DNA of 46,164 nucleotides, from positions 1 through 46,164 of the forward strand of contig VYFT01000059.1 in assembly GCA_009842245.1 (NCBI GenBank), given 5' to 3'. The stretch is from Gammaproteobacteria bacterium. Its GTDB lineage: Bacteria; Pseudomonadota; Gammaproteobacteria; Pseudomonadales; Azotimanducaceae. Below, piece by piece: positions 30,519-46,164 of this stretch. Positions within the stretch are counted from its first letter, which is position 1. Each line of letters begins with the position of its first letter. Below the pieces are notes generated by a model. That model was not told the origin of the DNA. It saw only the letters and a program-made list of their open reading frames with translations, and did no database searches. Both the position numbers and the translations under genes were made by a program.

Positions 30519-32933
30519 TTGAGCATACTTCAGAGATACTTTAATAGACGTTTACGACAACGATCTCAAGTTATTCGAAATTCCAGTCCAGTGAACCCTC
30601 CCGAAACTCCTAAACGCCAATGGGCAAAACAGTACGCTGAACTAGTGCTCTCAGCTCGCTGGATTGTCATCCTCGCCACGGTAGCTTTAGTGATCGTGGC
30701 ATCACTAGGAGTTATGCGGCTTGGGTTTGAAGCGGACTACAAAATTTTCTTTGATGAACACAATCCCCAACTACTAGCTCTAGAGACCCTGGAACACACC
30801 TATGGGAAGAGTGAAAATGTCGCGTTCTTAATCGTACCAAACGACGGAAATGCTACATCAGAGAGTGCGCTGTCGGCGACCGTATGGCTGACAGACGAGG
30901 CTTGGAAAACGCCCTATTCAAGCCGCGTCGACTCCCTCGCAAACTTTCAATACACAACTGCCGACGGAGACGATTTGTACGTAAGAAACCTCATCGAGCC
31001 CGACGAACTGTCTCTCCCAAGGACCCAAGATCACATACGATCCATCGCGCTATCGGATCCGCGAATAGAGGGTAGTATGCTGGCACGAAATGGAGATGTT
31101 TCCGTCGTGAACGTCACCATTGAACTACCGGAACTTTCGGGTACTGACCTGTTAGAGCCTGTAGCAGAAGTCGCTAACTTTGCCAGAGAACTCGCAGCAA
31201 CAGTTGAAGAACGATATCCAAACATCGACATCCGCGTGGTTGGTACGGTCATGGTAAATCAAACCTTCGTCGCAGCCTCTCTAGAAAGCCAGTTGATTTT
31301 CTTTCCTGCGAGCCTACTTCTGATGGCGCTGATCTTGGGTGTGCTAACTCGAGGTGTTTCTGGAGTTCTAGCGACCGGTATGGTCATGGTTTTTTCGGTG
31401 TTAGCCTCAATGGGTATCGGGGGCTGGTTTGGACTACCGTTTTCTCCGCCGTTAATGCCTGTACCCACTATCGTTCTGATGATCGTGGTCGCGAACTGCG
31501 TACATCTACTGGTGACCACCCAGAATCGTATGCGCGCTGGCGACTCCAAACACGACGCGATCGTCGAGTCGATTCGTTTAAACCTACACCCTGTTTTTCT
31601 TGCGAGTCTTACGACAACGCTCGGTTTCCTTAGTATGAACTTCTCCGAGGTTCCACCGTACCGACACTTAGGAATGTTTGTGGCGTTTGGCATTATGGTC
31701 TCGTTCGTTCTGTCCGTATCTTTCTTGCCCGCGGTTCTATCAATTCTTCCGTTCCGCGCAAAAAAGACAGATCAATCGTCCCCTACTTTTTCTATGAAAA
31801 GACTTGCGGAGGTAATCCTCAGGCATCGAAAATTACTGTTCTGCGTTTGGTTAATCGTCATACCAGCTATGATTGTGGCAATCACCCGTAATGACCTGAA
31901 CGATGTACTAGTTCACTTCTTTAACAAAAGTGTCGAATTTCGGCAGGACACAGACTTCATGGATGAACGTTTGAGTGGCAATACCCTGCTTGAATACTCG
32001 TTAGAAGCTGAGACATCTGGGGGCGCGACTGATCCAAATTTCCTACAAGACGTATCGAACTTTGCCGATTGGTACCGAGAACAGCACCCAGTACGTCATG
32101 TAGCGACAATTACGGATACGTTTAAACAGCTCAACAAGAGTATGCATGGCGATGATCCGGTAATGTATCAGATTCCCGATAGTCAGGAGCTAGCAGCTCA
32201 ATATCTCCTTCTCTACGAACTTTCGCTACCTCAGGGCTTAGGACTAAACAATCAGATCGACAGGTCCCGCACAGCCACTCGGGTCTCTGTCTCCACAGAA
32301 ACTTTGAATTCAAAAGATCTACTCGACTTAAACGCACGCGCGAAGGAGTGGTTGGAAGAAAACGCACCACACGTTGCCAAAGTCTCAGGTACGGGACCAT
32401 CAACACTGTTCGCTTACATCGGTCAACGCAACATTCAGACTATGCTGGTCGGTACCGTAATCGTACTTTTAGCTATTTCTGCGATTCTTTTGGTTGCATT
32501 GAGATCGTTCCGAATCGGATTAATCAGCATTGTTCCGAATTTAGTACCAGCGATCATTGGATTTGGTGTGTGGGGGCTGACCGTTGCACAGGTCGGACTC
32601 GCGCTATCGGTTGTCGTTGCGATGACTATAGGAATTGTCGTAGACGACACCGTGCACTTTCTGGGAAAGTATCTTCGTGCCCGTCGTGAGTTGAATCTCG
32701 ACCCCGAATCCGCCATTCGTTATGCGTTCGAGACTGCTGGTCGAGCACTACTCACGACCACGCTTGTATTAGTAGCAGGGTTCTTGATATTTGTGTTTTC
32801 GCCGTTTGTCCCGACCGCACAGGTGGGCATCCTGACAGCTCTAATCATCGGCTTTGCGTTTATCGCCGACCTCACACTCCTACCAGCACTCTTAATGTGG
32901 GTTGATAGAAGTGATAACCGCGTTCGAGATTAG
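30519..32933 (+). CDS. RND-superfamily (MMPL/Patched-like) exporter
   Basis: An 804-residue inner-membrane protein with the two-fold RND layout. TM1 (about residues 47-67) is followed by a large periplasmic loop. Then comes a five-helix bundle (about 248-415, with PTIVLMIVVANCVHLLVTTQNRMR), a second TM-loop unit from about residue 440, and a second bundle (VVAMTIGIVVDDTVHFLGKYLRARRE, with the conserved Asp pair likely to carry protons). This is the COG1033 type of predicted exporters of lipids or hydrophobic compounds, not the tripartite AcrB type. The start is uncertain: a TTG at 30519 without an obvious Shine-Dalgarno, since no ATG lies near. It stands 69 bases before the mini-HlyD gene on the same strand and may export or flip the product of the locus, which is inference from position only. 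Confidence 0.8.
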   Translation: MSILQRYFNRRLRQRSQVIRNSSPVNPPETPKRQWAKQYAELVLSARWIVILATVALVIVASLGVMRLGFEADYKIFFDEHNPQLLALETLEHTYGKSENVAFLIVPNDGNATSESALSATVWLTDEAWKTPYSSRVDSLANFQYTTADGDDLYVRNLIEPDELSLPRTQDHIRSIALSDPRIEGSMLARNGDVSVVNVTIELPELSGTDLLEPVAEVANFARELAATVEERYPNIDIRVVGTVMVNQTFVAASLESQLIFFPASLLLMALILGVLTRGVSGVLATGMVMVFSVLASMGIGGWFGLPFSPPLMPVPTIVLMIVVANCVHLLVTTQNRMRAGDSKHDAIVESIRLNLHPVFLASLTTTLGFLSMNFSEVPPYRHLGMFVAFGIMVSFVLSVSFLPAVLSILPFRAKKTDQSSPTFSMKRLAEVILRHRKLLFCVWLIVIPAMIVAITRNDLNDVLVHFFNKSVEFRQDTDFMDERLSGNTLLEYSLEAETSGGATDPNFLQDVSNFADWYREQHPVRHVATITDTFKQLNKSMHGDDPVMYQIPDSQELAAQYLLLYELSLPQGLGLNNQIDRSRTATRVSVSTETLNSKDLLDLNARAKEWLEENAPHVAKVSGTGPSTLFAYIGQRNIQTMLVGTVIVLLAISAILLVALRSFRIGLISIVPNLVPAIIGFGVWGLTVAQVGLALSVVVAMTIGIVVDDTVHFLGKYLRARRELNLDPESAIRYAFETAGRALLTTTLVLVAGFLIFVFSPFVPTAQVGILTALIIGFAFIADLTLLPALLMWVDRSDNRVRD

Positions 32934-33002
32934 TCGCACACAAATGTGCCCGTTAAAATTTGTGGTGTTCGCTTCTTTATAGCGAGGTAGCAAAGTAGCA
33001 AC

Positions 33003-33551
33003 GTGTTTAACAACCCACTTGAATCATTCCACAACACCGTTGCCGAGGCGAAAGCGGAGCGGGAACAACTCGACCGACTGCTAACCGTATCTTCTCCCCG
33101 AGAACTGTTACTGTTAGTCCTTGTGATAGTTCTATTAGTCGCGCTCACCACTTGGCTCGTGTTCGGTGTTCTGGACCGAACCGTCGCGGCTAATGCTACT
33201 GTGCTCGAGCATTCAACTACAGCCGACAATACAAAGCAAGTCCTGCGGATGGACGCATGGCTAAGTACCGAGCTCGATCTGGAGGTCAAGACTGGAATGC
33301 CTGTGATGATTAAACCTGCGAGTGTTCAAGGAAAGTCGGAAACTATAAAAGGTATGCTTCGATCCATTCTGTCACTAGACGGATCGAAAGATTTAATGAC
33401 AGCAGGTCACACTCCGTTAGTTGCTAAACGTATCGAGATCACCGTCGACCCTGAAGTCGAATTTTCATCCGACATAGGTGATGAGTGTGTTGTAATCATC
33501 CATCTTGGACGACAGTCCCCGATTGAGTTGATCGGAACAATTCTGCTTTAG
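33003..33551 (+). CDS. minimal HlyD-like NHLM secretion protein
   Basis: A 182-residue protein with one transmembrane helix (about 34-58) preceded by EQLDRLLTVSSPRELLLL, the N-terminal signature of membrane-fusion proteins in NHLM/NHLP bacteriocin systems. The C-terminal part (KTGMPVMIKPASVQGKSETIKGMLRSI, and near the end RQSPIELIGTILL) matches the beta-barrel portion of those proteins. The usual long coiled-coil hairpin and lipoyl halves between them are absent, so it is about half the normal size. The start is GTG at 33003. It ends one base before the C39 ABC transporter gene. It probably acts as the periplasmic adaptor of the following transporter(s). Confidence 0.7.
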   Translation: MFNNPLESFHNTVAEAKAEREQLDRLLTVSSPRELLLLVLVIVLLVALTTWLVFGVLDRTVAANATVLEHSTTADNTKQVLRMDAWLSTELDLEVKTGMPVMIKPASVQGKSETIKGMLRSILSLDGSKDLMTAGHTPLVAKRIEITVDPEVEFSSDIGDECVVIIHLGRQSPIELIGTILL

Positions 33552-33552
33552 T

Positions 33553-35763
33553 ATGGCTTCACGCTCGACCCAGACTAAAAAACAAGAGTCTGTTCTTCGT
33601 CAAAAAAAGCAAAAGATAACTACGCCTATTCTGTTGCAAATGCACGCTACAGAGTGTGGCGCTGCGTGTTTAGGAAGCGTGTTAGCCTATTTCGGACGTT
33701 GGGTTCCACTCACGCAATTACGTGAAAAATGTGAAGTCAGTCGAGATGGTAGTAGCGCGGCGAGTATAGTGCGAGCGGCTCGACATTATGGCCTTGAGTG
33801 CAAAGGCCTGAGCGTAAATGCTAACCTGCTAAAAAACCTCAGTTTGCCGCTCATCTTGTTCTGGCAGTTTAGCCACTTTGTCGTACTTGAAGGGATTTCT
33901 GAACGCCACTTTTACTTGAATGATCCTGCTTCCGGACGACGGAAGCTTACCAAGGAAGAATTTGTAAAAGGTTATAGCGGTATAGCACTTCAATTGAAAC
34001 CTGGCGAAGACTTCACGCGCGGTGGCGAGTGGCCAAATCTATTTAAACAACTGAGAACTTTCCTCTCCGGTGCATGGCGCGTGCTAACCGGTGTGTTCGC
34101 TTGCGCCGTGACGATGACATTGTTAGCTCTTGTAATACCAGTGTCTTTGACTGTTTTCGTAGATGAAGTAATGCAAAACCATAGTGCTTGGCTCGGCGTT
34201 GTGGTCGCGCTTCTCACCGCGGGAATCTTGATATATTCCTTTTCTTGGTTGAAGCACCGACTGCTTGAACGACTATCCGTAAGGATTTCTGTAATTGGAT
34301 ACAACGAAAGCTTGACCAAACTCTTACGATTGCCACTTGAATTTTTTGAACACCGACAAGTGGGTGACTTAACAGACCGAGTGTCGACCATCGATCGGAT
34401 TGCAAAGAATCTTACGACTGAGTTCCTCGTACTACTCATTGATATGGCGATGAGTGTGGTACTTCTGGTCGCGATGCTGTTCTTTAATGTGATTCTCGCT
34501 ATCGTCGTTCTGATGCTTGCTTTACTCCATGGGTCATTGACCTATTTTCTTAACCACAAGCAATCAATTCAAAGTCAGACAATGAGGCGTGAGCAAGGAC
34601 TGCTACTTGCGATTGGTATGCAGATGTTGAGCCACGCAGAAAATCTTCGTATGACCGGCGCGGACGACCGATTTTTTTCTCGATGGAGCGGACAGCAAGC
34701 GCGAGAACTGCAAGCTCGTCAGCTGAATTCCGAATTGAGTGCGATCAACTCCGCACTTCCAGGACTCATCTCTGTTTGGCGAAGTGCTGCCATATTGACC
34801 ATTGGTGGAGTGCTAGTCATTTCGGGAGAAATGAGTTTGGGAGTTTTGGTAGGGTTCTATTTCTTAGCCGAAATGTTTTTGGACCCCATTGCTCGTTTTA
34901 TGGAATTTGCCGACAAACGACACACTCTTGAAACTGACTTACAGAGACTTCAAGACATTTCAAATACGACGGAAGACCCTATATTCAGCCGACGAAGTCC
35001 AGAGTCCGTTTCAATTCCTACCTTTGAAGGAAGATTTCAGTTAACTGGTCTAGTTGAATTGCGGAATGTGACCTTCGGGTACAACAAGAGCCGTCCCCCA
35101 CTGATCAAAGATTTCGACCTTACGATCAAACCCGGTCAAAGGGTTGCCGTGGTTGGAACCAGTGGATCTGGGAAATCGACGTTGCTGCGACTCATTTCTG
35201 GTATCAGTCATCCGTGGTCTGGAGAAATTCTGTTCGATGGTCATCTACGAGATGAAATTCCCGAGGAAGTTCTTCGAAGATCCATTTCCGTAGTAAATCA
35301 AGAGGCGATGCTTTTTGCCGCAAGCGTTCGAGACAACATAACATTGTGGAATCCGGCGGTATCCGATGAAATCATAGTCTCGGCTACGCGAGATGCGTCT
35401 ATCCATCACGATATCTTGGCACGTCCCCATGGCTACTCGACAGAAGTTGAGGAAGGCGGGGCAAACTTCAGCGGCGGTCAGCGACAACGGTTAGAAATCG
35501 CACGGGCTTTGGTAGGCAATCCCACCTTGCTACTGTTAGATGAAGCCACTAGTTCGCTTGACGCGGCGACGGAAGAATCCGTGGATGACAGTCTACGACG
35601 AAGAGGAGTCACGTGTTTTATTATTGCGCATCGACTTAGCACCGTCCGTGATTGCGACGAAATAATCGTGCTCGAAAAAGGCGCGGTAGTACAACGTGGT
35701 ACGCACGACGAATTGATCGCCGAGAAAGCTGGCACCTACTACAAGCTAGTCAGGCAGGGTTGA
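33553..35763 (+). CDS. NHLM-type peptidase/ABC exporter (C39)
   Basis: A 736-residue bifunctional protease-exporter. The N-terminal C39 peptidase has an oxyanion Gln and nucleophile Cys at about residue 35 (LLQMHATECGAACLG), the catalytic His at about 108 (FSHFVVLEG) and Asp at about 124 (LNDPASGRR), so it appears active. Six membrane helices follow (about 170-460). The nucleotide-binding domain has Walker A GTSGSGKSTLL (Lys at about 541), the signature FSGGQRQRLEIARAL, and Walker B LLLLDEATSSLD. Such proteins cut double-glycine leaders and export the core peptide. The minus-strand peptide at 46080-46164 has exactly such a leader. The stop overlaps the next gene (TGATG). Confidence 0.93.
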   Translation: MASRSTQTKKQESVLRQKKQKITTPILLQMHATECGAACLGSVLAYFGRWVPLTQLREKCEVSRDGSSAASIVRAARHYGLECKGLSVNANLLKNLSLPLILFWQFSHFVVLEGISERHFYLNDPASGRRKLTKEEFVKGYSGIALQLKPGEDFTRGGEWPNLFKQLRTFLSGAWRVLTGVFACAVTMTLLALVIPVSLTVFVDEVMQNHSAWLGVVVALLTAGILIYSFSWLKHRLLERLSVRISVIGYNESLTKLLRLPLEFFEHRQVGDLTDRVSTIDRIAKNLTTEFLVLLIDMAMSVVLLVAMLFFNVILAIVVLMLALLHGSLTYFLNHKQSIQSQTMRREQGLLLAIGMQMLSHAENLRMTGADDRFFSRWSGQQARELQARQLNSELSAINSALPGLISVWRSAAILTIGGVLVISGEMSLGVLVGFYFLAEMFLDPIARFMEFADKRHTLETDLQRLQDISNTTEDPIFSRRSPESVSIPTFEGRFQLTGLVELRNVTFGYNKSRPPLIKDFDLTIKPGQRVAVVGTSGSGKSTLLRLISGISHPWSGEILFDGHLRDEIPEEVLRRSISVVNQEAMLFAASVRDNITLWNPAVSDEIIVSATRDASIHHDILARPHGYSTEVEEGGANFSGGQRQRLEIARALVGNPTLLLLDEATSSLDAATEESVDDSLRRRGVTCFIIAHRLSTVRDCDEIIVLEKGAVVQRGTHDELIAEKAGTYYKLVRQG

Positions 35764-38705
35764 TGGATCACGCATCAAACGAACGTACATCCGTCTCCGA
35801 AATCGCGTTACGGTCAACCATGAGCGTACCCTGTGAAGGAAATTCACCAGTCGCACTTGACGACGACCATTGCTTCTGGTATGTAGAAAACGGTGCTGTT
35901 GATCTCTTTCTTGTAGAGACCAAGGAAGGCGTAGAACAAGCAGCACCGCAACACTTAATGCGGGTCGAGTCTAAGAGGCTATTGCCGAGTGTCGTCGCGG
36001 ATAAACAGGACCGAGAGGAAAGTGAAACAACGCTCGGTTTAGTCGCGAAAGGAAAACCTGGTACCCGCTTGACGCGAATACCAGTTGCAGATCTTGCAAA
36101 GATACACACGTACGAGATAGCTGCACAGATCGATGGTTGGTTGAGTGCACTAACTCAAGCACTATCGCGATTCGTTATCCGTTCACCGAGACCGAATGCG
36201 TTGTTAGAACCCACTGAGGAAATCACTTTGTCAGCGGGAACTGTGAGCGTTTCGCGTAGCCTAGTATGGGTATCCGGTGCAACGCAGGGCACGGGTTTAT
36301 TCATGGACATGGTAGACCCCGCGGAGATAGTCAAAGAAGTAGCTGAAACGGCAATCCCTCTAACGCGGGCAAGCTGGATCTCAATTTTCGAAGAGGTAAC
36401 TATTTCCGGTTACTCTACGGAAACACTCGCATCGGATGGAACACTCTTAGACGCGCTCGCGTCTTTCCATCGGATTGCTTTACATATGGAACGACTGAAC
36501 CGTCGATTAGCAGTAGTCGACGACGCGAATCTCGAGCGGGACCGAATTATGAGTCGCCGCGTTGCCGAAGACGTGGCTCGAACTCGGCTTTTCAACATTT
36601 ACGACCAACAAAAAACGACACCAACAGAAGCCGACGACACCGCCCTTGCAAGTGCACTACGGCTTATAGGTCGTCGCTTGGGTATTGAGTTCAAGATTCC
36701 TCAAAAATCGGAGTCATTCGAAGAGCCAGTTACTTTAATAGACATTCTTGATGTGTCTAGCGTGCGTGCAAGACGTGTGAGTCTCGATTCAGAGCAAAAA
36801 TGGTGGCGTAGCGACAGCGCGGTGCTCTTAGCTTTCCGGGCGACTGACAATCAACCGATTGTCCTAATACCTGGAATGCATGGAAGGTATAACCAAATTG
36901 ATCCAATTACCAAGAAAAGGACGATAACGTCTAAGACTCGCGCTGAGGAACTGAAAGAAGATGCTTGGATGTTCTATCAACCGTTGCCTTCGGGTTCGGT
37001 GACGGCGGCCGAACTCCTACGATTCAGCTTGCGACGCTCTGGTAAGGACTTGGCGCGACTTGTAATATCCGGGATCGTTGGCGGGTTAGTAAAACTAATC
37101 CCAGCACTAATGCTTGGTTTGGTAGCCAACTACATCGTTGCAGGCGGGAATACAACTGGACCACTCTTTGTAGTAGCAGTTCTACTAGTCGTAGTTGGAC
37201 TTTTGAGTGTATTAGTAAACCTGTTGCAAAACACGGCCATGATGCGTTTTGAAGGTCGATCCGCGTCTCGATTAGAAGCAGCTCTTTGGGATCGCTTAAT
37301 GCGTCTACCATCGGAAGTTCTCCATCGGCAACCAAGTGGAGAATTAGCGATGTCGGGGATGGCTTTTCAGAACTTGCGGGACGGTTTGCAAAGAGTCGTC
37401 GCCAACAGTGTCTTGTCACTTATCTTTTTGCTGCCCGTCTTCGGTGTTGTCTTCTTTTACGACGTTGTACTAGGTAGCGTCGTTTTGATTTTTAGCCTGG
37501 TTGCTCTTTCGATAATGTTTTTTTGGGGAATGTGCCAAGTATCACCCTATGGACGCATGATTGGTGCAATCCGGCGAGTTTCAGGGTTGTTGTTTGAAAT
37601 CATAGAAGGTATTTCAAAACTTCGGGTTGAAAACGCTGAAGGTTCTGCGTTCGCCATGTGGGCTCAAGACTATCGAGAACAAAAACGTGCGGAACTGAAA
37701 CTTGGTAAATATGAGCGACACGCACGTGCGCTAGGTGCAGCTCTGCCATTTCTTGCAGGAGCTGTTCTGGTGTTCGTGGTGGTAACTATTGGAAATGGCG
37801 ACTTTTTAGTCGGTGACTTTTTAATTGCCTTCGCGGTGTTCATTGTCTTTCAGCATGCTATCGCTCGCTTCGGTGAGTCTTTCGGTCTGGTTGCTTCAAT
37901 GCTACCTGCGATGAAGCAGATGCGTTCGATGCTGGCGGCGGACCCACATACTAAGATGTTAGGAGAGCCCGTTGACAGTCTGCAGGGCGACGTCCTGTTT
38001 GACCGGATTTCGTTTCGATACACGCCAGAAGGACCGCTAGTTCTCAGTGATGTCACTATTCACGCTCGTCCCGGCGAATTCATCGCTATCGCGGGTGAAT
38101 CTGGTGCAGGGAAGAGCACTCTATTTCGACTTGCAATCGGTCTTGATCGACCTACCAATGGAGCGGTTTATTACGACGGTCGAGATTTGCGACACCTCAA
38201 TTTGAAACAGCTACGACGAAAGATGGGTGTGGTACCTCAGTCGGTGAGACTTCATCCGCAGGATATCTGGGACAATATTGTCGTCCATCATGAAGACCCC
38301 AACACGGAACAAGTTTGGGAGGCCGTTCGTTCCGCCAGCATTGAGCAGGAAATTCGATCCATGCCTATGGGAATGATGACTATGGTAGGTGCGAGTGGAT
38401 CGGTGCTGTCTGGCGGAGAAAGCCAGCGGATTTCCATCGCTAGATCTCTGTTGGGTAATCCTCGAATCATGCTGTTCGACGAGGCAACCAATTGGCTCGA
38501 CAACGACAAACAAGCCCATGTTATGCAGAACTTAGCGCTCCTCACTTCTACGAGAATTGTTATCGCACATCGTCTTTCGACTTTGAAGCAAGCTGATCGA
38601 ATATTCGTAATGCAAGCGGGCAAGGTCGTGCAAAGTGGCACATTCGATGAACTCATGGAAGTTCAAGGTGTGTTCAAAGAACTGGTGAAGCGACAGATAG
38701 CGTAG
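35763..38705 (+). CDS. NHLM-type ABC transporter, ATP-binding/permease protein without peptidase
   Basis: A 980-residue partner transporter of the NHLM system. The start used is the ATG at 35763 overlapping the preceding stop; the frame is open farther upstream but inside the previous gene. The first 120 residues (including DHCFWYVENGAVDLFLVE) resemble the cyclic-nucleotide-binding-like domain typical of this subfamily. A long linker region (about 120-430) is followed by a transmembrane domain (about 435-690) and an ABC domain with Walker A GESGAGKSTLF (Lys at about 784), signature LSGGESQRISIARSL and Walker B RIMLFDEATNWLD. There is no C39 domain. It probably forms a heteromeric exporter with the C39 protein. 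Confidence 0.88.
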   Translation: MDHASNERTSVSEIALRSTMSVPCEGNSPVALDDDHCFWYVENGAVDLFLVETKEGVEQAAPQHLMRVESKRLLPSVVADKQDREESETTLGLVAKGKPGTRLTRIPVADLAKIHTYEIAAQIDGWLSALTQALSRFVIRSPRPNALLEPTEEITLSAGTVSVSRSLVWVSGATQGTGLFMDMVDPAEIVKEVAETAIPLTRASWISIFEEVTISGYSTETLASDGTLLDALASFHRIALHMERLNRRLAVVDDANLERDRIMSRRVAEDVARTRLFNIYDQQKTTPTEADDTALASALRLIGRRLGIEFKIPQKSESFEEPVTLIDILDVSSVRARRVSLDSEQKWWRSDSAVLLAFRATDNQPIVLIPGMHGRYNQIDPITKKRTITSKTRAEELKEDAWMFYQPLPSGSVTAAELLRFSLRRSGKDLARLVISGIVGGLVKLIPALMLGLVANYIVAGGNTTGPLFVVAVLLVVVGLLSVLVNLLQNTAMMRFEGRSASRLEAALWDRLMRLPSEVLHRQPSGELAMSGMAFQNLRDGLQRVVANSVLSLIFLLPVFGVVFFYDVVLGSVVLIFSLVALSIMFFWGMCQVSPYGRMIGAIRRVSGLLFEIIEGISKLRVENAEGSAFAMWAQDYREQKRAELKLGKYERHARALGAALPFLAGAVLVFVVVTIGNGDFLVGDFLIAFAVFIVFQHAIARFGESFGLVASMLPAMKQMRSMLAADPHTKMLGEPVDSLQGDVLFDRISFRYTPEGPLVLSDVTIHARPGEFIAIAGESGAGKSTLFRLAIGLDRPTNGAVYYDGRDLRHLNLKQLRRKMGVVPQSVRLHPQDIWDNIVVHHEDPNTEQVWEAVRSASIEQEIRSMPMGMMTMVGASGSVLSGGESQRISIARSLLGNPRIMLFDEATNWLDNDKQAHVMQNLALLTSTRIVIAHRLSTLKQADRIFVMQAGKVVQSGTFDELMEVQGVFKELVKRQIA

Positions 38706-38729
38706 TTTTCACCCCTTCGAATCACTTCG

Positions 38730-40058
38730 ATGAGTCTTTTTAACCGGATTCTGAATAAGGCTAGTGTAGACGACAATTTCCGCTCACGGCTGCTAGATAA
38801 TCCCAAAGCTGCGATTACGCAGGAGTTTGGGTTGCGATTTGATGAAGATCAAGACATTGTCGTGCACGAAGAGACTGATTCAACGACGCACTTGATACTT
38901 CCGCCAAAAGACAAGCTGAGCGTCACCGAACGATCCGAAGCGAAAACTGGAGCGGCGTCGCTGGACTTTCTAAAGAAAACCATGTACGACCCCGCACCTC
39001 CGAAGCGTCCTTCGGTCAGTCCCAAGGAGCGTGTACGCCTGGAATCCGATGACACTGAGTCATTAGTAAATACGGCAAGAAAAAGCATTGTGCGAGGTCT
39101 CAATTTTCTGCAGACTACCGTTAACGAAACGGGTGCGTGGCACTGCATTCGATTCAATGTTGGAGATCCAAACATACCTCGACACTTCGAACGCCCCCCT
39201 TTTATTTCCGCATTTTGTGCGCTTGCTATACAACGAAGTAAAGAGCCAGTCGCACGTGAGTTGTACAAACAAACCAAAAACTACCTCGTCGACACCATGG
39301 AATACCCAGGTTTTTGGAGATACTACCGCCACCTGCCACAAGATCTTGACAGCAGTTCGTTGTGCTCAATGGTCATTGATACTCATCCGTGGATTGGGCT
39401 AGGACGGAATCTGCCTCGAATTTTGGCAAATCGAGACAATAACGGACTGTTTTTAACCTGGGTACTGAACGAAGACGAACCAAGTGTCGTGTCGCCTTTC
39501 CGTATGGAAGCTGACCCAGTAGTCAACGCGAACATTATTGCCTATGCTGGTGATTTACCAGCGACTAAGACGGCGCAACAGTGGCTACGGGAATTGGTCG
39601 AAAAAGATACAAATCTCGAGGATGCTTCAAAATGGTACCCAGACCCAGCTTCGATTTACTACGCGATTGCGCGTGCTACGGTTCGAGTACAACTTGGATC
39701 TGAGAAATTTCCTTTGATACTAGCTGAACGGATTCTGAGTCTGCGGGATGAAACTAGCGAATTTGAAAATGTTCTTCAAGCCGCGCAAGCCATCGTCGCA
39801 CTTCATAATATTCGACAGTTACACAATTTAAACGTCCTGCATCAGATTGCATACTTTGTTGACTCGCAACAAGAGGACGGCAGTTGGCCTGAGCTGCTTG
39901 CATTCGGAGATCAATCTTTGCGCTTTGGAGTTGTTGGACAAATAGGTCATGGATCAGAGTCGGTAACTTCTGCGTTTTGTATCGAAGCACTGGAGTGTTT
40001 ACTCGAAGCACTCGAGACCGAGGGAAGCAGTGGTCGTGTTAACGTGTCGAGAGACTAG
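38730..40058 (+). CDS. NHLP-leader domain fused to squalene-cyclase/prenyltransferase-like toroid
   Basis: A 442-residue fusion. Residues about 8-62 read like a nitrile-hydratase-type RiPP leader: NFRSRLLDNPKAAITQEFGL, then IVVHEETDSTTHLILPP. After a proline-rich linker, residues about 105-430 have prenyltransferase/squalene-oxidase-type repeats: GLNFLQTTVNETGAWHC, RNLPRILANRDNNGLFLTW, ADPVVNANIIAYAGD, and QQEDGSWPE at about 381. A D-L-D-S at about 205-208 partly matches the class II cyclase DxDD acid motif. An NHLP leader on an enzyme rather than on a small peptide suggests that the leader docks the protein to the modification or export machinery, or that it is vestigial. Catalysis is unproven. 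It lies 24 bases after the second ABC gene. Confidence 0.72.
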   Translation: MSLFNRILNKASVDDNFRSRLLDNPKAAITQEFGLRFDEDQDIVVHEETDSTTHLILPPKDKLSVTERSEAKTGAASLDFLKKTMYDPAPPKRPSVSPKERVRLESDDTESLVNTARKSIVRGLNFLQTTVNETGAWHCIRFNVGDPNIPRHFERPPFISAFCALAIQRSKEPVARELYKQTKNYLVDTMEYPGFWRYYRHLPQDLDSSSLCSMVIDTHPWIGLGRNLPRILANRDNNGLFLTWVLNEDEPSVVSPFRMEADPVVNANIIAYAGDLPATKTAQQWLRELVEKDTNLEDASKWYPDPASIYYAIARATVRVQLGSEKFPLILAERILSLRDETSEFENVLQAAQAIVALHNIRQLHNLNVLHQIAYFVDSQQEDGSWPELLAFGDQSLRFGVVGQIGHGSESVTSAFCIEALECLLEALETEGSSGRVNVSRD

Positions 40059-40102
40059 CGGTTATTGGACTTAACATACAATAATGAAAAGGGATTGTTG
40101 CG

Positions 40103-42490
40103 ATGACTGAAAACTTAAGCGTCGGTAATACAGTCGGTTCAGGAAAACCGGACGAGGTTAAATTCTTTGAGCCTTCGTTTCTCAATGCTCTACCGCACTA
40201 CTTGCCTCTTCTCGTTTTCCCGTTGTTGATTTTGGCCGCTCTCTACGGTGGTTTTTGGTTACTTGGTCCGTTCGTCTTCATGAGCGTCGCCGGCTTTCTT
40301 GATCGCGTGTTCGGGGTTGATGGTCTCAATATGAACCCTCGAGGCATTTCGGAACGGCGTTTTATTTGGTACAACATACCAGTGTGGGGATGGGCAGTGC
40401 TTTGGCCGCCAACATTGGTTTTCGGATTATGGCAGATTTTCGGAGGAGCTTCGTACCCAATATGGCAAAAAGTATGTCTCGCTATGCTACTGACCATGGA
40501 AGCACAAGCGGTGTTCGTTGTCGGGCATGAACTGGTTCACAGACGCTCTACGTGGGAACGACGACTCGGGGAATTTCTTCTTGCTTCGAATTCCTACCCT
40601 CAATATGCCACAGAGCACGTTTACATTCACCATGCTAAGGTCGGCACGCCTCACGACGTCGGATCAGCTCCAAAAGGAGAGAGTTTCTGGCGGTACTTCC
40701 CTCGTGAAGTCGTTAGTAATCTAACCAATTCGTGGAAAGTCACTGGCGAACGTTTGGCGCGTCGAAAGCTGTCCCGTTGGCACTATAGCAATCCGTTTTG
40801 GCGTTATGGCATTGCATTAGCGTTCTGGTACGGAATAGTTTATTACTTAGGTGGAATATGGGCTCTGCCCATTTACATATTCCTTGGTCTAAGTTGTGTA
40901 TTCTCGATGAAGATCAGCAACTACTTTCAACACTATGGATTACGACGAGTTCTCATGTCTAACGGGCGATGGGAGAAAATTTCACCACGCCATTCGTGGA
41001 ATGCAGATTGGAAGTTCACGAACTGGATGTTTTTCAAAATGCAGCGGCATGCGGATCATCATGCTATGGCTACCCGACCGTACGCGCAATTGCAGCATCG
41101 AGCCGACGAGTCACCGGAGCTTCCCGGAACCTACGGTGATATGATGAACCTCGTGCTTCGACCGAAACGTTGGTTCGCAAAGATGGATCCTTTAGTCGAT
41201 CAGTGGCGTCAACACTTTTACCCTGAGATCGACGATTGGAGTCCCTACGACAGTTCTGTTTCCGCTACTCGGCCAGACGACTTTAATGAAATCGTCGAAA
41301 TATTTGGAGTTGCGCCTAGACTCGCAGAACGCGTCGAACGCAATCCAGAACTACTCAATAATCTTTCCGAGAGGGAATTTACGGATCTCAATCTACCGAA
41401 GGGAGTGTTGGACGAACAGGAGTATGACATAGCCCGGCGCGGGCTAGCCAGGCTCTATTGGACTACCGAAATGGGCGTTCATGAAATGCGAGATTTGATT
41501 GGCGAAATCCCTTCGACTAACTCTAGCGAGACTGCGGAAATTGCGCGGAATTGGGTGAACGACAAAGCCTTTCAGATTGGCATGCACGTCCTTCGAGAAA
41601 ATTTGTCCACCGCCGAATCTTCAATTGCTCTTACCAATCTTGCAGAGGCTACGATTACCGCGGTAATTTCTTCGACGATTACAGATTTTGTTGAGCAAGT
41701 AGCGGGCGATTCAGACGGCGGATTAGCCGTGATTCTGTTTGATGAACTTGCGACGAAGGAAGCGTTTCCTGGTGTCAACATCAAATTACTAATCTTGTTC
41801 GATGGTTGGAACTCTGACGCAATCAAACGTATGTCTCGTAATCTACGTGATCGGATCGGACATCTGGCAAAAGATAGCATATTGTTTTCGCCGCTTCAAC
41901 GAAAGACCAAGGACGTTTTAGCTCTAACCTTTGCGGATCTTCAAAATCATTTCGGAGGGTCTGATTTAGAAACAATTTCTGATCTTGCTAAAGCCCGATG
42001 TGTCTGGGAATATGGAAACACAGGACTGACACATCGGTACGACAAAACTCGACTCACACTTCTCCAAGATTGTCGAACGAACAACTCTCAACTTGCACTT
42101 AATGGATCTCTCAATACTCAGCCCGACCGCAGCGTGTCTCCCTATATTGGAGTGAGTGAAAAAATCGATCAATTTGAGCAAGTCGCACGATTCCTTCAAT
42201 TAACAAAAGACGCAATAGACCTCAACGATTGCGCGCCAACGGCTACCACCATATTCCGGCGTTTAGGTGAAGATGGGTTAGCGGAAGGTTCTTCCCTGTG
42301 GCGCAATCTTCAAGGTGTCGCTCGCCTTGTTCATGAAGACAGTTTTGACTTAGATGATGCTAAACCAAAAGTACAGGCGCTTATTGCCAATGCGTGCGAA
42401 CAAGCGGAGTTTGATGCCTTAACCTCCAAATTAGCAGAAATCGAATCAACCACTGCGAAAGCGATCAACGCCATCGTCGGGCGTCCGTAG
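40103..42490 (+). CDS. AlkB-type di-iron membrane hydroxylase fused to degenerate GlnE-like domain
   Basis: A 795-residue protein with two unrelated halves. Residues about 1-375 form an AlkB/XylM-like integral-membrane hydroxylase with HELVHR (about 142-147), EHVYIHH (171-177; G to I against EHxxGHH), NYFQHYGL (about 273; E to Q against NYxEHYGL) and QRHADHHAMATRPY (about 314). Residues about 393-795 follow the GlnE order. VEIFGVAPRLAERVERNPELL comes first, then a helix region, then GLAVILFDELA aligned to G-L-A-x-I-G-L-G-K-L-G, and NIKLLILFDG where GlnE has the catalytic SDxD. Next are an R-x-V-W-E-like block, EKIDQFEQVARFLQL aligned to R-E-I-E-F-x-V-Q, and a terminal helical bundle. The metal-binding aspartates are replaced, so this half is probably catalytically dead. 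Substrate unknown. Confidence 0.72.
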   Translation: MTENLSVGNTVGSGKPDEVKFFEPSFLNALPHYLPLLVFPLLILAALYGGFWLLGPFVFMSVAGFLDRVFGVDGLNMNPRGISERRFIWYNIPVWGWAVLWPPTLVFGLWQIFGGASYPIWQKVCLAMLLTMEAQAVFVVGHELVHRRSTWERRLGEFLLASNSYPQYATEHVYIHHAKVGTPHDVGSAPKGESFWRYFPREVVSNLTNSWKVTGERLARRKLSRWHYSNPFWRYGIALAFWYGIVYYLGGIWALPIYIFLGLSCVFSMKISNYFQHYGLRRVLMSNGRWEKISPRHSWNADWKFTNWMFFKMQRHADHHAMATRPYAQLQHRADESPELPGTYGDMMNLVLRPKRWFAKMDPLVDQWRQHFYPEIDDWSPYDSSVSATRPDDFNEIVEIFGVAPRLAERVERNPELLNNLSEREFTDLNLPKGVLDEQEYDIARRGLARLYWTTEMGVHEMRDLIGEIPSTNSSETAEIARNWVNDKAFQIGMHVLRENLSTAESSIALTNLAEATITAVISSTITDFVEQVAGDSDGGLAVILFDELATKEAFPGVNIKLLILFDGWNSDAIKRMSRNLRDRIGHLAKDSILFSPLQRKTKDVLALTFADLQNHFGGSDLETISDLAKARCVWEYGNTGLTHRYDKTRLTLLQDCRTNNSQLALNGSLNTQPDRSVSPYIGVSEKIDQFEQVARFLQLTKDAIDLNDCAPTATTIFRRLGEDGLAEGSSLWRNLQGVARLVHEDSFDLDDAKPKVQALIANACEQAEFDALTSKLAEIESTTAKAINAIVGRP

Positions 42491-42492
42491 AG

Positions 42493-44838
42493 GTGCCGAC
42501 GCGCTTTACTGGGAATGTCGATTCACCCGATCGATTAGATGAGGATGCTCGACCATCGGGTATTCTGACCAAGACCACCCCTGAAGACCAAGGACTGGTT
42601 AAACTACCGGTTCTCGCTCCCCACCTTAAGTTTCACGACATCGGAGATCAACAAGTTTTGTTGGTCTCTGAATCTTTCAATACGCTCCTACACGGGAAAA
42701 TGTATTGCAACTTGTTACCTCTTTTAGACGGGAGCAATAGTCTCGATTCCTTATTGTCGTCGCTCGATTCGGAGCACGACTTTACAAGCTTATTGTCTGC
42801 AATTGTCTCTCTCTCTACCAAGGGATATATTGTGTCTGCAGACCATAGCTTGGACTCGGCAACCGCAGCCTATTGGTCGTCTCTCGGAGCGTCGCCGCGC
42901 TGGGTTGAACATAGGCTTGCAAATTCGTGTGTTTCAGTAGTGGAAGAACAAGGCAATTTGGTTCGACATTTGAAAGAAGCCAGCGTGTCAACTGACAGCG
43001 AAAACCCAAATCTCAAGGTCATAGTTTGCGATGACTTCTTAGCTGGAGAGTTTGAGCAAACGAATCGGCTAAATTTTGATCAGAAGATTCCATGGATGCT
43101 CGTGCGACCACAAGGTATTGAGACACTATTCGGTCCTATTTTTATTGCCGAGAAGAATAGTCCATGTTGGATGTGTCTTACGGATCGTCTTCGCCTTCAC
43201 CAAGAGGTACACAACTTCTTGAGACACAGTCTGGGGGAAGATCGTGCATTCAAAGCATTTGCAACGGAATCAATCGCTCGCCAATCTGTCTTTGCGCTCG
43301 TAGCGAGTGAAATCGTTAAATGGCTAGTTCTAACTGAATTAGCCCCGCTCCACCAACACGCGATCACTTTTAACCATAGCGGACTTTCACTCTCCAAGCA
43401 TCTACTGAGTAGACGACCACAATGCTCGGTTTGCGGCGATCCAGACATGTATAGACCTAATCGAAGTCCTGTTCCGATTACCCTAAGCTCAAGTCCGAAG
43501 AGAAGTAGCAACAGTGGAGGTGTGCACACGGTAGTGCCTGCAGAAACACTAGCAAAATATCGACACCTTGTAAGTCCAATAGCTGGCGTGGTGAGCTGGC
43601 TACGCCGGAGTTCGGAAGAAACTGATAACTTCATGCACGTCTATTGGGCAGGTAGCAATTTTGGGTCACGTGGTAGAACTTTAAGCTCGCTTCGTCGTAG
43701 CCTGCGAAGCAAGAGTGCAGGGAAAGGGAGTACGAGGGAACAGTCGAAAGTCAGTGCGTTGTGTGAAGCCATTGAACGAGTGTCCGGTAGTTTTGACGGA
43801 AGCGAGATTTACATTAACAAGGGGTTCATCGAGTTCGAAGATGATGAGGCAGCGATCCATCCCAATGACGTTCAGTTGTTTAGCGCTCATCAACTAGACA
43901 ATTCACAAGTACTCAATGCTCAAGGACATCCGTACAACGTCATACCGCAACACTTCGATGAATCGACATCAGTTAAATGGACGCCGGTCTGGTCATTTAC
44001 GCAACAAAGGCAGCGGTATCTACCGACATCAATGTTGTACAGCATGCCAACCGAACTCAGAAGTCCTAATGACCGGATTGCCGACTCAAATGGCTGCGCT
44101 GCTGGCAATACCCTAGAAGAAGCAATCTTGCAAGCGTTTTACGAATTGGTTGAACGTGATGCGTTTGCCATATGGTGGTACAACCGCATACAAGCGCCAG
44201 CGGTTGACGTTCCCAGTTTCGAAGATCCGTACCTTGAAAAAGCCTCAGAATACTACGACCGGCTCGATCGAGACTTATGGCTGCTCGATGTTACTTCAGA
44301 TCTTGAGATTCCAACATTTGTCGCACTCTCCCGGCAAAGGAATTCAAACACTGAAGACATCATCTATGGTGCTGGCGCGCATTCCGATCCGCAAATAGCT
44401 GCGCTGCGGGCGGTGTGTGAACTCAACCAATGTCTATCTTGGCTACCCAATGAACCAGGAGGAAATAATCGACCAAAAATCGATGACCCAATGGCTTTGA
44501 ATTGGTGGCGCAACGCGCGTCTCAAGGATTGTGTCTGGCTTACACCCTCCGATTTGGTTCGAACAGCCGCTGACTACCCTGCACTCGACACCGAGGACAT
44601 GAGGGATGACATTGAACATTGTCGAGCTACAGTTGAAGCTAAAGGTTTAGAGTTTTTGGTACTAAATCAAACACGTCCAGATATTGGTATGCCAGTGGTT
44701 CGGGTGATCGTACCGGGAATGCGACACTTTTGGGCAAGACTTGCCCCAGGACGTCTGTACGATGTACCTGTACACATGGGATGGCGCAAACGAAGTCTCG
44801 ACGAAAACGAGTTAAATCAAACACCGGTAATTGTGTAA
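42493..44838 (+). CDS. fused leader-binding (ThiF/E1-like) and YcaO cyclodehydratase
   Basis: A 781-residue C-D fusion typical of azol(in)e RiPP pathways. The N-terminal 380 residues hold a winged-helix leader-binding region and an E1-like fold with two CxxC zinc pairs (about C225/C228 in PCWMCLTD, C311/C314 in CSVCGDPD). The YcaO domain (about 395-781) has the ATP/Mg motifs CEAIERVSG (about 424-431) and YELVERDAFAIWWYNR (about 550-565), and a conserved R-Y-L-P-T-S block. YcaO activates the backbone amide with ATP so that a Cys/Ser/Thr side chain can cyclise. The C-terminus ends TPVIV rather than the PxPxP common in azoline-forming members. The start is GTG two bases after the previous stop. 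Three consecutive Cys of the putative precursor are the natural substrates. Confidence 0.9.
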   Translation: MPTRFTGNVDSPDRLDEDARPSGILTKTTPEDQGLVKLPVLAPHLKFHDIGDQQVLLVSESFNTLLHGKMYCNLLPLLDGSNSLDSLLSSLDSEHDFTSLLSAIVSLSTKGYIVSADHSLDSATAAYWSSLGASPRWVEHRLANSCVSVVEEQGNLVRHLKEASVSTDSENPNLKVIVCDDFLAGEFEQTNRLNFDQKIPWMLVRPQGIETLFGPIFIAEKNSPCWMCLTDRLRLHQEVHNFLRHSLGEDRAFKAFATESIARQSVFALVASEIVKWLVLTELAPLHQHAITFNHSGLSLSKHLLSRRPQCSVCGDPDMYRPNRSPVPITLSSSPKRSSNSGGVHTVVPAETLAKYRHLVSPIAGVVSWLRRSSEETDNFMHVYWAGSNFGSRGRTLSSLRRSLRSKSAGKGSTREQSKVSALCEAIERVSGSFDGSEIYINKGFIEFEDDEAAIHPNDVQLFSAHQLDNSQVLNAQGHPYNVIPQHFDESTSVKWTPVWSFTQQRQRYLPTSMLYSMPTELRSPNDRIADSNGCAAGNTLEEAILQAFYELVERDAFAIWWYNRIQAPAVDVPSFEDPYLEKASEYYDRLDRDLWLLDVTSDLEIPTFVALSRQRNSNTEDIIYGAGAHSDPQIAALRAVCELNQCLSWLPNEPGGNNRPKIDDPMALNWWRNARLKDCVWLTPSDLVRTAADYPALDTEDMRDDIEHCRATVEAKGLEFLVLNQTRPDIGMPVVRVIVPGMRHFWARLAPGRLYDVPVHMGWRKRSLDENELNQTPVIV

Positions 44839-44847
44839 CCGACAATC

Positions 44848-45966
44848 ATGAACATTGACGAAGCGGTTGTAATTACCCAAGAGAGGCTCGCACTAGAGGG
44901 TCAAAATATGGGTGATCTGTTAGGTAATCTTCGCGACCGCATTTCGCCTTCGCTAATTGGTGAATCTCAGTGGAAGTGTATTCTTGAGCGCGCTGAAACA
45001 CTTCCGATTGAAATGGGAGCCCTACCCTTTGGATTTGAGATTCCGTTGCACGAGAGTAGACCTGAGGCCGATTTTGGAGTCTCTCTTGCGAGTGGTACCC
45101 GAACCGCTACCTTCTACGAAGAACTCCAACGTAAAGACTGTACCGATGATACTGCAAATGCTATTTTGAAACTATTCCAGCAGATGGAATCGGATAAATC
45201 AACACTTCGAGACATTGTTGGTCGAAAATTGATGTTAGAGTACGACATCGATTCTGGGTCAGACAACACAAACGCGATGCCAGGAATGTTTTTGAGACCT
45301 GGTGAGCGTCCTATTTTGGGTTCCGGTCAACAAGTTGAAGATGTGAGAACGGTAGTCGATGCTCTTGTCTCCTGCGTAGGTTGGAGTCGAAGCGAAACAG
45401 AGAGTAAGAATGTTGAGCGTGTATATTTAGCACAACCGGAACATACGCGCACAGACTCTTTCGGGATATTCCCTTCGCGTTCCCGTTCGATTCGACTTGC
45501 CGTAATGGGGTTCAAGAATATTCAGGAATTAAGCATCTATCTCGAGAAAACGGGATGGCCAGGCAAAATCTCTGCGGTAAAGTCTGTTGTATCACGATTT
45601 CAACAGCGCGCCAATGTAGTCCGCAGTGGAGTAAATATTGATGTTCGGGAAAATGGTTTAGGACCTTCGCTTGGGCTCACTCTCATTGTCAAGCAACGGT
45701 TTACGAAGGATTCTCGGTATTGGCTCGACGGTCAAACGGATTGGGAACCGTTTCTACGAGCACTGAGTTTAGAAAATGTCGTAGACGCCAAGAAATTAAA
45801 AGAACTTGAGAATTGGTATTCAAAGCCTACTGTACTGTTCGCAAAGTCCGGTCGCTTTGTCTTACTACAAGGCATCCACCACATAAAGCTTGTCGTATCC
45901 GACAATCAGCTTCAAAAGGTAAAGGCGTATGTGTTCCTTGTACTATCGGGGGCAATTACTCTTTAG
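44848..45966 (+). CDS. conserved-looking protein of unknown function, RiPP operon
   Basis: A 372-residue soluble protein starting at an ATG nine bases after the YcaO stop. I do not recognise a catalytic signature. In particular it lacks the FMN-binding pattern of SagB dehydrogenases and has no membrane segment or signal peptide. Distinct blocks are FGFEIPLHESRPEADFGVSL (about 60-80), GMFLRPGERPILG (about 148), RLAVMGFKNIQELSIYLEKTGWPG, and FVLLQGIHHIKLVVSDNQ near the end. It could be a RiPP-associated scaffold, immunity protein or tailoring factor; the position at the end of the operon gives no more than that. Confidence 0.7.
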   Translation: MNIDEAVVITQERLALEGQNMGDLLGNLRDRISPSLIGESQWKCILERAETLPIEMGALPFGFEIPLHESRPEADFGVSLASGTRTATFYEELQRKDCTDDTANAILKLFQQMESDKSTLRDIVGRKLMLEYDIDSGSDNTNAMPGMFLRPGERPILGSGQQVEDVRTVVDALVSCVGWSRSETESKNVERVYLAQPEHTRTDSFGIFPSRSRSIRLAVMGFKNIQELSIYLEKTGWPGKISAVKSVVSRFQQRANVVRSGVNIDVRENGLGPSLGLTLIVKQRFTKDSRYWLDGQTDWEPFLRALSLENVVDAKKLKELENWYSKPTVLFAKSGRFVLLQGIHHIKLVVSDNQLQKVKAYVFLVLSGAITL

Positions 45967-45986
45967 CTTACCCCAAAAATGCAAAA

Positions 45987-46021
45987 GCCGCCACCTCGCT
46001 GAGATGGCGACTCCTCTTTTT
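45987..46021. terminator. probable bidirectional rho-independent terminator
   Basis: Imperfect stem 45987-46011 (GCCGCCACCTC-GCT-GAGATGGCGAC; 11 pairs possible with two mismatches). On the plus strand it is followed by TCCTCTTTTT. On the minus strand it is followed by TTTTGCATTTTT. It lies between the convergent RiPP operon and the precursor-peptide gene, so it can serve both. Confidence 0.62.
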
Positions 46022-46050
46022 CAACGCGAACTGCGTTAGCTCGCGTTGAA
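46020..46050. repeat. perfect 10-bp inverted repeat (hairpin)
   Basis: TTCAACGCGA (46020-46029) and TCGCGTTGAA (46041-46050) are perfect inverted repeats around an 11-base loop. A second small dyad, TAAACGT/ACGTTTA (46053-46059 and 46065-46071) with an A5 loop, follows. Both lie in the 3' untranslated region of the minus-strand peptide gene and could stabilise its mRNA or assist termination. No long U-tract follows the first hairpin on either strand, so it is not itself a canonical terminator. Confidence 0.6.
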
Positions 46051-46079
46051 TTTAAACGTAAAAAACGTTTAGATTTTGT

Positions 46080-46164
46080 CTACCAGCAACAACAAAGACC
46101 TGCGGAAATTGCTTCGAGTTGTTCCTCGGTGATATTCGGATCCGGCGGCAAAGCAAGGTGAACA
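46080..46164 (-). CDS. putative RiPP precursor peptide, 3' end (partial), core LCCCW
   Basis: The minus strand at the right edge is open and ends with TAG at 46082-46080. The visible 27 residues are VHLALPPDPN, then ITEEQLEAISAG, then LCCCW. The middle block fits the double-glycine leader consensus L-S-x-x-E-L-x-x-I-x-G-G position for position, with Ala-Gly at -2/-1. That is what the C39 peptidase-exporter of the adjacent operon should cut. The remaining core would be only five residues, three of them adjacent Cys, suited to YcaO heterocyclisation. The 5' end lies beyond the window. The gene converges on the biosynthesis operon with a shared terminator. The alternative, a chance frame in non-coding DNA, seems unlikely given the leader match. 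Confidence 0.72.
   Translation of the reverse strand, partial: VHLALPPDPNITEEQLEAISAGLCCCW

Follow-up and report, generated by a model that had tools for sequence, protein, structure and literature searches.

The srp cluster ("sponge-derived RiPP proteusin") specifies a ribosomally synthesized and post-translationally modified peptide (RiPP) with the precursor SrpE. Within the SrpE core, LCCCW, the YcaO enzyme SrpC converts the three Cys residues to thiazolines and the flavin-dependent brominase SrpI acts on the Trp (PMC10858898, PMC10286304). The cluster is cited as conserved across sponge species (PMC9426513), and the available parts of the former two accounts give no end product. Two further systems resemble the locus described here. 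According to the accessible text of the respective reports, the mpp cluster of Moorena producens lists a halogenase, a prenyltransferase, a terpene synthase and an oxygenase (PMC11791876), and its MppC, an ABBA prenyltransferase that requires the leader, prenylates Trp (PMC12715784). The mpp halogenase and prenyltransferase were shown to be active, the terpene synthase and the oxygenase are predicted (PMC11791876, PMC12715784); in the available passages the type of oxygenase is unspecified and the cyclase is not stated to be NHLP-fused (PMC11791876). NctPC combines an ABBA-fold prenyltransferase with an MstE-like cyclase in one protein; it attaches a geranylgeranyl chain to Trp and cyclises it, and the ChrPC prenyltransferase has another fold than ABBA (excerpts of PMC13290415). 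The locus compared to these systems lies at the end of a 46,164-nt contig, in the following called the window, of a gammaproteobacterium of the Azotimanducaceae (assembly GCA_009842245.1, contig VYFT01000059.1) and combines RiPP genes with genes for a terpene cyclase-like protein, an AlkB-type hydroxylase and a 372-aa protein.

From these comparisons it appeared that the window encodes the srp pathway with additional steps, in which an isoprenoid would be attached to the thiazoline- and bromotryptophan-containing peptide and cyclised, and the product oxidised. We assign a probability of roughly 0.64 to this reading. The predicted set resembles mpp in combining halogenase, ABBA-type prenyltransferase, terpene cyclase and oxygenase with a long-leader RiPP containing a core Trp, but mpp has a Nif11-type leader and a lanthionine ring, whereas srp has an NHLP leader and thiazolines. 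With NctPC it would share an ABBA-fold prenyltransferase and an MstE-like cyclase working on Trp, which as far as described are one protein there but two genes here, with an NHLP-like domain on the window cyclase. A categorically new RiPP class was therefore rejected: srp and mpp are already described, and the set reads as a parallel of NctPC and mpp on another scaffold. The original prediction, made from the window alone, had known of no RiPP class with such a combination, a statement refuted by the srp identity of the locus and by the published mpp genes.

Identity of the locus

The last bases of the window encode VHLALPPDPNITEEQLEAISAGLCCCW followed by a stop codon, which is the final part of an NHLP precursor with the core LCCCW. 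Because core and leader motif match published SrpE, the locus is almost certainly a copy of the described srp cluster. The core is identical; the leader motif reads NITEEQL in the window and NLTEEQL in SrpE, so that the first L of the LxxxxL region is an I in this copy. Further similarities are a YcaO cyclodehydratase in the window (compare SrpC) and a Trp halogenase beside the 5' part of the precursor gene (compare SrpI), both family-level matches, and the occurrence of related loci in sponge symbionts of many taxa. No difference from the srp clusters was established. Functions as prenyltransferase, terpene cyclase and AlkB are unmentioned in the available parts of the srp accounts (PMC10858898, PMC10286304), and no description of a prenyl or terpenoid step for srp was found among the papers listed from the open-licence PMC literature.

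The precursor gene runs off the end of the window, which is the complete contig C34 of a genome assembled into 83 contigs totalling 2.58 Mb. To locate the remainder, the halogenase and the precursor of a homologous locus, L032, were used for searches in the same genome; if translation begins at the probable start Met, the L032 precursor is 83 residues long. Both hits were on contig C49 (6002 bp): a halogenase of 89% identity and the first 60 residues of the precursor query, which contain the N-terminal part of the leader. C49 terminates within the precursor gene, which is followed by genes for a LolA-like protein (PF17131, 1.2e-59), a 409-aa protein and a Trp halogenase (PF04820, 1.5e-45), and, at the far end, an FG-GAP/UnbV protein truncated by the contig end. 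A Pfam scan of the 409-aa protein was without match; it is tentatively called DUF1302-like. Since the gene order of C49 is found unbroken in L032, the locus very probably continues on C49. A convergent precursor, as originally predicted, is thus present, but its designation as a mini-precursor was dropped, its small size being an artefact of the contig end with the remaining leader on C49.

A predicted aromatic prenyltransferase

The 372-aa protein encoded by the last plus-strand gene is likely to be an ABBA-fold aromatic prenyltransferase, judging from its predicted structure. The AlphaFold model (pLDDT 91.9, pTM 0.90) shows five strand pairs separated by helix pairs, the arrangement of an ABBA barrel with its ten strands in alpha-beta-beta-alpha repeats. 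A fold search against the PDB yielded 72 matches below 0.001, with 8.6e-6 as the best E-value among the matches listed, and the best 50 of the 72 were all ABBA-type aromatic prenyltransferases, several of them acting on indole or tryptophan. In the model, the invariant residues E64, K127 and K347 of the family are located on predicted strands, where they might serve in diphosphate and acceptor binding. At the sequence level, no match of the protein to a known prenyltransferase family was obtained, and its Pfam scan gave ALS_ss_C at 0.048 only. A search with PF11991 in 299 genomes of the phylum found no match anywhere, 14 control genomes included, and is hence uninformative. Among viral proteins, Foldseek returned one match below 0.001, an uncharacterised protein of cyanophage S-CAM1 (BFVD A0A1D8KGK9, E 2.7e-4).

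A probable NHLP-fused terpene cyclase

The gene originally read as NHLP-leader/squalene-cyclase-like very likely encodes a class II terpene cyclase. The NHLP-leader-like domain comprises approximately residues 1-66, the cyclase domain approximately residues 107-434, and the AlphaFold model (pLDDT 87.9) predicts the alpha-helical class II cyclase fold. In a Foldseek search against the PDB, drimenol synthases were best (9.7e-12), followed by small squalene-hopene-type cyclases and the meroterpenoid cyclase MstE. A profile of the cyclase domain alone matched drimenol synthase with 3.4e-7, and the match rose to 3.6e-10 when three remote homologues were added. The invariant PxDLDS is aligned with PDDLDTT of drimenol synthase, which contains the catalytic DxDTT. 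DLDS occupies residues 205-208 and the putative catalytic Asp is D207; the residue aligned with it reads N in the D333N mutant chain of drimenol synthase. In that mutant the cyclised product is no longer formed, and D333 was suggested as the proton donor, according to the available part of the report (PMC9128629). Both motif Asp residues are invariant in 45 of 45 cyclase sequences and in all 23 of a set including remote relatives, two of which read DADD instead of DLDS.

The window cyclase thus shares fold and motif with drimenol synthases (AsDMS) and the fold with MstE. It differs in its partner domain, the HAD-like/DDxxE domain of drimenol synthases being replaced by the NHLP-like one, and the substrates of the two relatives are free farnesyl diphosphate (FPP) for AsDMS and a prenylated benzoate for MstE. 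The NHLP-like domain perhaps docks on leader-binding surfaces or on partner enzymes. Hopanoid biosynthesis was considered and rejected, since the cyclase domain has about 330 aa and is closest to drimenol synthase and MstE, and the HpnN matches of the RND protein are far under the cut-off.

The strongest independent support for the prenyltransferase reading came from gene pairs outside srp. In two genomes, G039 and G080, remote homologues of the 372-aa gene (23-26% identity) and of the cyclase gene (34-36%) adjoin each other, with NHLP precursors alongside whose tails contain Tyr (HLQTAGMYGGSRIVPHSH and relatives), and no srp-type YcaO match was detected in either genome. A similar set in G180 has a stop in the prenyltransferase-like frame and a precursor ending in AGDHIVW. 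The regions in G039 and G080 (L122:7931-11540 and L123:9290-11920) are compact, with one or more NHLP precursors, the prenyltransferase-like gene and a cyclase with the DADD motif. Because Pfam and NCBIfam give no relevant match for the prenyltransferase family, similar pairs elsewhere may be missed.

An AlkB-type oxygenase fused to a degenerate GlnE-like domain

The gene preceding the YcaO gene appears to encode an AlkB-type membrane di-iron monooxygenase fused to a degenerate GlnE-like nucleotidyltransferase domain. Residues 50-368 (approximately) match alkane 1-monooxygenase structures with 5e-66 (8f6t) and 1.2e-52, and the His clusters forming the di-iron motifs are invariant in 42 sequences. 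The protein therefore resembles AlkB alkane 1-monooxygenase in possessing the full catalytic domain, but adds the C-terminal half, which is GlnE-like (match to 3k7d, 2.1e-14). In GlnE, the residues GG...SSDLD are catalytic. The corresponding GlnE segment, GKLGGWELGYSSDLDL, is aligned with a family consensus without GG and SSD, and the window reads FPGVNIKLL at this place. A GlnE-type adenylylation step was rejected on account of this loss.

In one locus, L062 (G144:C63), AlkB and YcaO are contained in a single reading frame. The fusion of AlkB to GlnE is not exclusive to srp, since a 40%-identical copy in G171 (L119) has no srp locus around it but genes that, by eye, resemble housekeeping ones. 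Two proteins of about 1520 aa (L117:4861-9417 and L118:1593-6158; G006:C7 and G122:C93) match the GlnE-like part. A scan identified the L117 copy as an RND pump of the AcrB family whose C-terminal domain is GlnE-like, and L118 was judged by length and match. These represent membrane-protein fusions of the AlkB-GlnE kind.

Conservation and relation to the core peptide

Searches with the AlkB-GlnE protein revealed 89 loci, of which 80 were kept. They are in metagenome-assembled genomes (MAGs) labelled Gamma- and Alphaproteobacteria, Acidobacteria, Nitrospira, Latescibacterota, Gemmatimonadetes and others, most of which we take to be sponge-derived from their isolate names. Recurrence in MAGs of several phyla indicates that the gene arrangement is not due to chance. 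Together with L120, 81 loci were compared using identity thresholds of our choice; AlkB presence in the 80 is by construction. Orthologue lists were restricted to matches whose coverage of the window protein was 85% or more. Alignments A1, A2 and A3 contain 51 of 55, 45 of 51 and 42 of 58 references, respectively; the 42 cyclase domains of A4, the 23 of A6 and the 24 prenyltransferase homologues of A5 were hand-picked.

No precursor was present in the DNA examined of 24 of the 81 loci, which were left out of the core counts. Of the remaining 57, 54 have a Trp in the core (LCCCW in 53, LSCCW in one) and three do not (LCCCGL, LTCCGC, MCCCL). All 54 Trp-core loci contain YcaO, the 372-aa gene and, by construction, AlkB; a cyclase is present in 52 of them and a halogenase in 38. 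The three loci without Trp all have the 372-aa gene and neither cyclase nor halogenase, the cyclase absence in L094 and L095 applying to the DNA examined. Counted by locus, with the sets of G039, G080 and G180 included, a cyclase occurs with a Trp or Tyr core in 55 cases, one of which (L114) is the window's own fragment, entered as gaps. Aromatic cores without cyclase were counted twice, non-aromatic cores without cyclase four times, and a non-aromatic core with cyclase not at all (Fisher p 2.9e-5, for loci that are related and not independent).

Separate searches in 200 genomes of the family, the window's own included, with a cut-off of at least 200 bits chosen by us, detected YcaO and AlkB in 38 genomes each, and the 372-aa gene, the cyclase and the halogenase in 36 each. 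All five genes are present in 32 of the 40 genomes having any; the exceptions are G040, G062, G060, G130, G123, G138, G160 and G114, with G060 and G130 lacking both YcaO and the 372-aa gene. The genome and locus sets overlap (L062 is G144:C63, L034 is G140:C42) and are not independent. Homologous loci without AlkB or cyclase, named in the original prediction as evidence that would speak against it, were sought in the genomes with a YcaO match: AlkB adjoins YcaO in 36 of these 38, as read by eye from two match tables. Exceptions are G114 with two remote YcaO copies (38%) and G160, which has neither AlkB nor cyclase and a core, MCCCL, without Trp.

Two observations concern individual loci. L034 has open frames for AlkB and halogenase but disrupted ones for YcaO, prenyltransferase and cyclase, indicating either a decayed copy or an assembly error. 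A gene for a Rieske-type oxygenase, recognised by motifs, is present in 8 of the 81 loci (L042, L046, L058, L065 and L070-L073).

Proposed pathway and alternatives

YcaO would convert the core Cys residues to thiazolines and the halogenase would brominate the core Trp, as demonstrated by others for srp and assumed here by homology. The 372-aa protein would transfer an isoprenoid to the core, most likely to the Trp indole, and the NHLP-fused cyclase would then protonate and cyclise the chain by means of the Asp of DLDS. AlkB would oxidise the product, possibly at the isoprenoid, and C39-ABC1, ABC2 and the HlyD-like protein would remove the leader and export the peptide. Passage of the greasy product through the envelope might fall to the RND pump together with the LolA-like protein and the 409-aa protein of C49. 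The resulting pentapeptide would carry thiazolines, bromotryptophan and an isoprenoid. We infer the prenylated residue, the chain length and the AlkB step. An isoprenoid on the core is reasonably probable, for its position on the Trp the chances are about even, and oxidation of the isoprenoid by AlkB is a tentative suggestion. The odds are likewise balanced for the complete description, a ribosomal meroterpenoid with three thiazolines, 6-bromo-Trp and an attached isoprenoid that is closed by the NHLP-tethered cyclase and oxidised by AlkB. In outline, the product originally envisaged, a very small thiazoline peptide with a lipid or terpenoid group, is in line with the class II cyclase and the prenyltransferase fold.

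Several results weigh against this pathway. No isoprenoid on SrpE is reported in the available parts of the srp accounts (PMC10858898, PMC10286304). It is the predicted fold alone that points to a prenyltransferase; TM-scores are moderate (0.36-0.57) and root-mean-square deviations high (5.9-10.8) among the fold matches listed, and nothing relevant was obtained in Pfam and NCBIfam scans of 51 family members, in scans of remote members or in two PDB profile searches. Two of the 54 Trp-core loci, L053 on a 7-kb contig and L092, have no cyclase in the DNA examined, and G040 and the single-contig genome G062 are without halogenase. Four cyclase-bearing loci hold a second precursor, MCCCGI, beside the LCCCW one (L077:18266-18535, L079:18465-18734, L080:18266-18535, L082:18248-19240), and the link between cyclase and aromatic core therefore holds by locus and not by precursor. 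Homologues of the 372-aa protein also occur with cores lacking an aromatic residue (L094, L095, L120, L125), and Trp may therefore not be the general target. In L125 (G006:C21, 5424-17622) two homologues of 33-34% identity are accompanied by an HvfB-like MNIO enzyme, an HvfC-like protein, a methyltransferase, NHLM transporters and three NHLP precursors ending in VCQC, GGECIC and LCACM; a cyclase match is absent from the 19 kb examined. At such loci, either the target residue varies or some family members act otherwise.

The last two points would be explained if the prenyltransferase-fold protein acted elsewhere, on a Cys sulfur or at the N- or C-terminus, with the cyclised isoprenoid hanging there and not on Trp. 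The Cys-rich cores next to its homologues, the three Trp-less ones given above and those of L125, are in agreement with this, as are the additional MCCCGI precursors. Yet the cyclase tracks loci with aromatic cores, the Trp-less loci contain divergent homologues (36-45% in L094, L095 and L120, 33-34% in L125), and NctPC and MppC prenylate Trp as far as the available text describes them (PMC13290415, PMC12715784). Another site of attachment is accordingly regarded as unlikely. A different order of events, in which a free isoprenyl diphosphate is cyclised first and the ring-bearing unit is either attached later or forms a product of its own, is considered less likely still. Its basis is that the closest solved relatives, drimenol synthases, act on free FPP (available part of PMC9128629), but their HAD-like/DDxxE domain is replaced by the NHLP-like domain in the window, and MstE and NctPC cyclise chains that are already attached.

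Finally, the product may simply be the published thiazoline-bromo peptide, with the cyclase-like and prenyltransferase-like proteins serving as scaffolds or export helpers. In the portions of the srp accounts at hand, the chemistry of SrpC and SrpI alone was shown (PMC10858898, PMC10286304), and the GlnE-like domain demonstrates that catalytic decay does occur in this locus. However, both motif Asp residues are invariant even across remote cyclases, the pair is retained in G039 and G080 without a YcaO match, and the five genes occur together in most genomes having any of them, which makes scaffolds highly improbable. Attachment and cyclisation of an isoprenoid on the srp peptide is therefore the preferred reading.

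Organization of the window

Scans for open reading frames (ORFs) and protein families revealed eight plus-strand genes (Table 1), the intervals between which range from a 1-bp overlap to 69 bp, in agreement with the closely packed genes noted before. For the NHLM ABC2 gene, the start was set to the position given in the table, the listed ORF start at 35652 being an upstream TTG. The match of the 182-aa HlyD-like protein is confined to positions 6-56 of 421 in NHLM_micro_HlyD, and the leader-binding (TIGR03882) and YcaO matches of the SrpC-like protein are both above cut-off. C39-ABC1 is a putative peptidase and exporter, which would cut the leader from the core prior to export. The RND transporter, probably an exporter of a hydrophobic product, was found in 28 of the 81 loci at a threshold of 35% identity. 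A terminator-like hairpin is situated between the convergent genes; three terminator-like sites were counted in the 365 bases scanned against 0.5 +/- 0.7 in shuffles, consensus matches that are not proof of termination. Upstream of the locus, in the first 29.5 kb of the window, 17 of the 18 ORFs with a length of 250 aa or more are on the minus strand. Ten were scanned and, besides one DUF4892 protein, are of housekeeping types, for example 2-oxoglutarate dehydrogenase, a succinate dehydrogenase-type flavoprotein, CoA ligase, aconitase, isocitrate/isopropylmalate dehydrogenase and Hsp90.

Table 1. Features of the srp locus in the window
Feature	Position	Strand	Evidence or remark
HAE3/MMPL-type RND transporter	30519..32933	+	PF03176 6.7e-31; TIGR00921 4.5e-44, 151 bits (curated cut-off 352)
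Short HlyD-like membrane-fusion protein, 182 aa	33003..33551	+	TIGR03794 (NHLM_micro_HlyD) 34 bits (cut-off 156)
C39 peptidase-ABC transporter (NHLM ABC1)	33553..35763	+	TIGR03796 6.8e-251, 834 bits (cut-off 853); PF03412 3.8e-36
NHLM ABC2 transporter	35763..38705	+	TIGR03797 5e-198, 660 bits (cut-off 709)
NHLP-leader-like and predicted class II terpene cyclase domains	38730..40058	+	TIGR03793 8.4e-12, 45 bits (cut-off 51)
FA_desaturase/AlkB and GlnE-like domains	40103..42490	+	structure-database matches 8f6t, 3k7d
SrpC-like leader-binding domain and YcaO cyclodehydratase (SagD type)	42493..44838	+	PF02624 2.2e-93; TIGR03604 8.9e-79; TIGR03882 3.8e-33
Predicted ABBA (PT-barrel) aromatic prenyltransferase, 372 aa	44848..45966	+	predicted fold
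Terminator-like hairpin between convergent genes	45983..46015	.	consensus match
SrpE-like precursor gene, 3' end, core LCCCW	46080..46164	-	5' part on contig C49

Implications

The near uniformity of the Trp cores across phyla, LCCCW in 53 and LSCCW in one of 54 loci, points to a single conserved role and not to a toxin shaped by an arms race. Should a cyclised isoprenoid be present on the core, the masses sought in extracts so far were probably the wrong ones. The leader-guided prenyltransferase and the terpene cyclase would also constitute a separable pair for adding terpenoid rings to peptides. srp loci are reported to be shared by sponge symbionts. If the meroterpenoid reading is true, the 372-aa proteins would represent a previously unrecognised prenyltransferase family, and their product would be encoded in sponge symbionts of many phyla.

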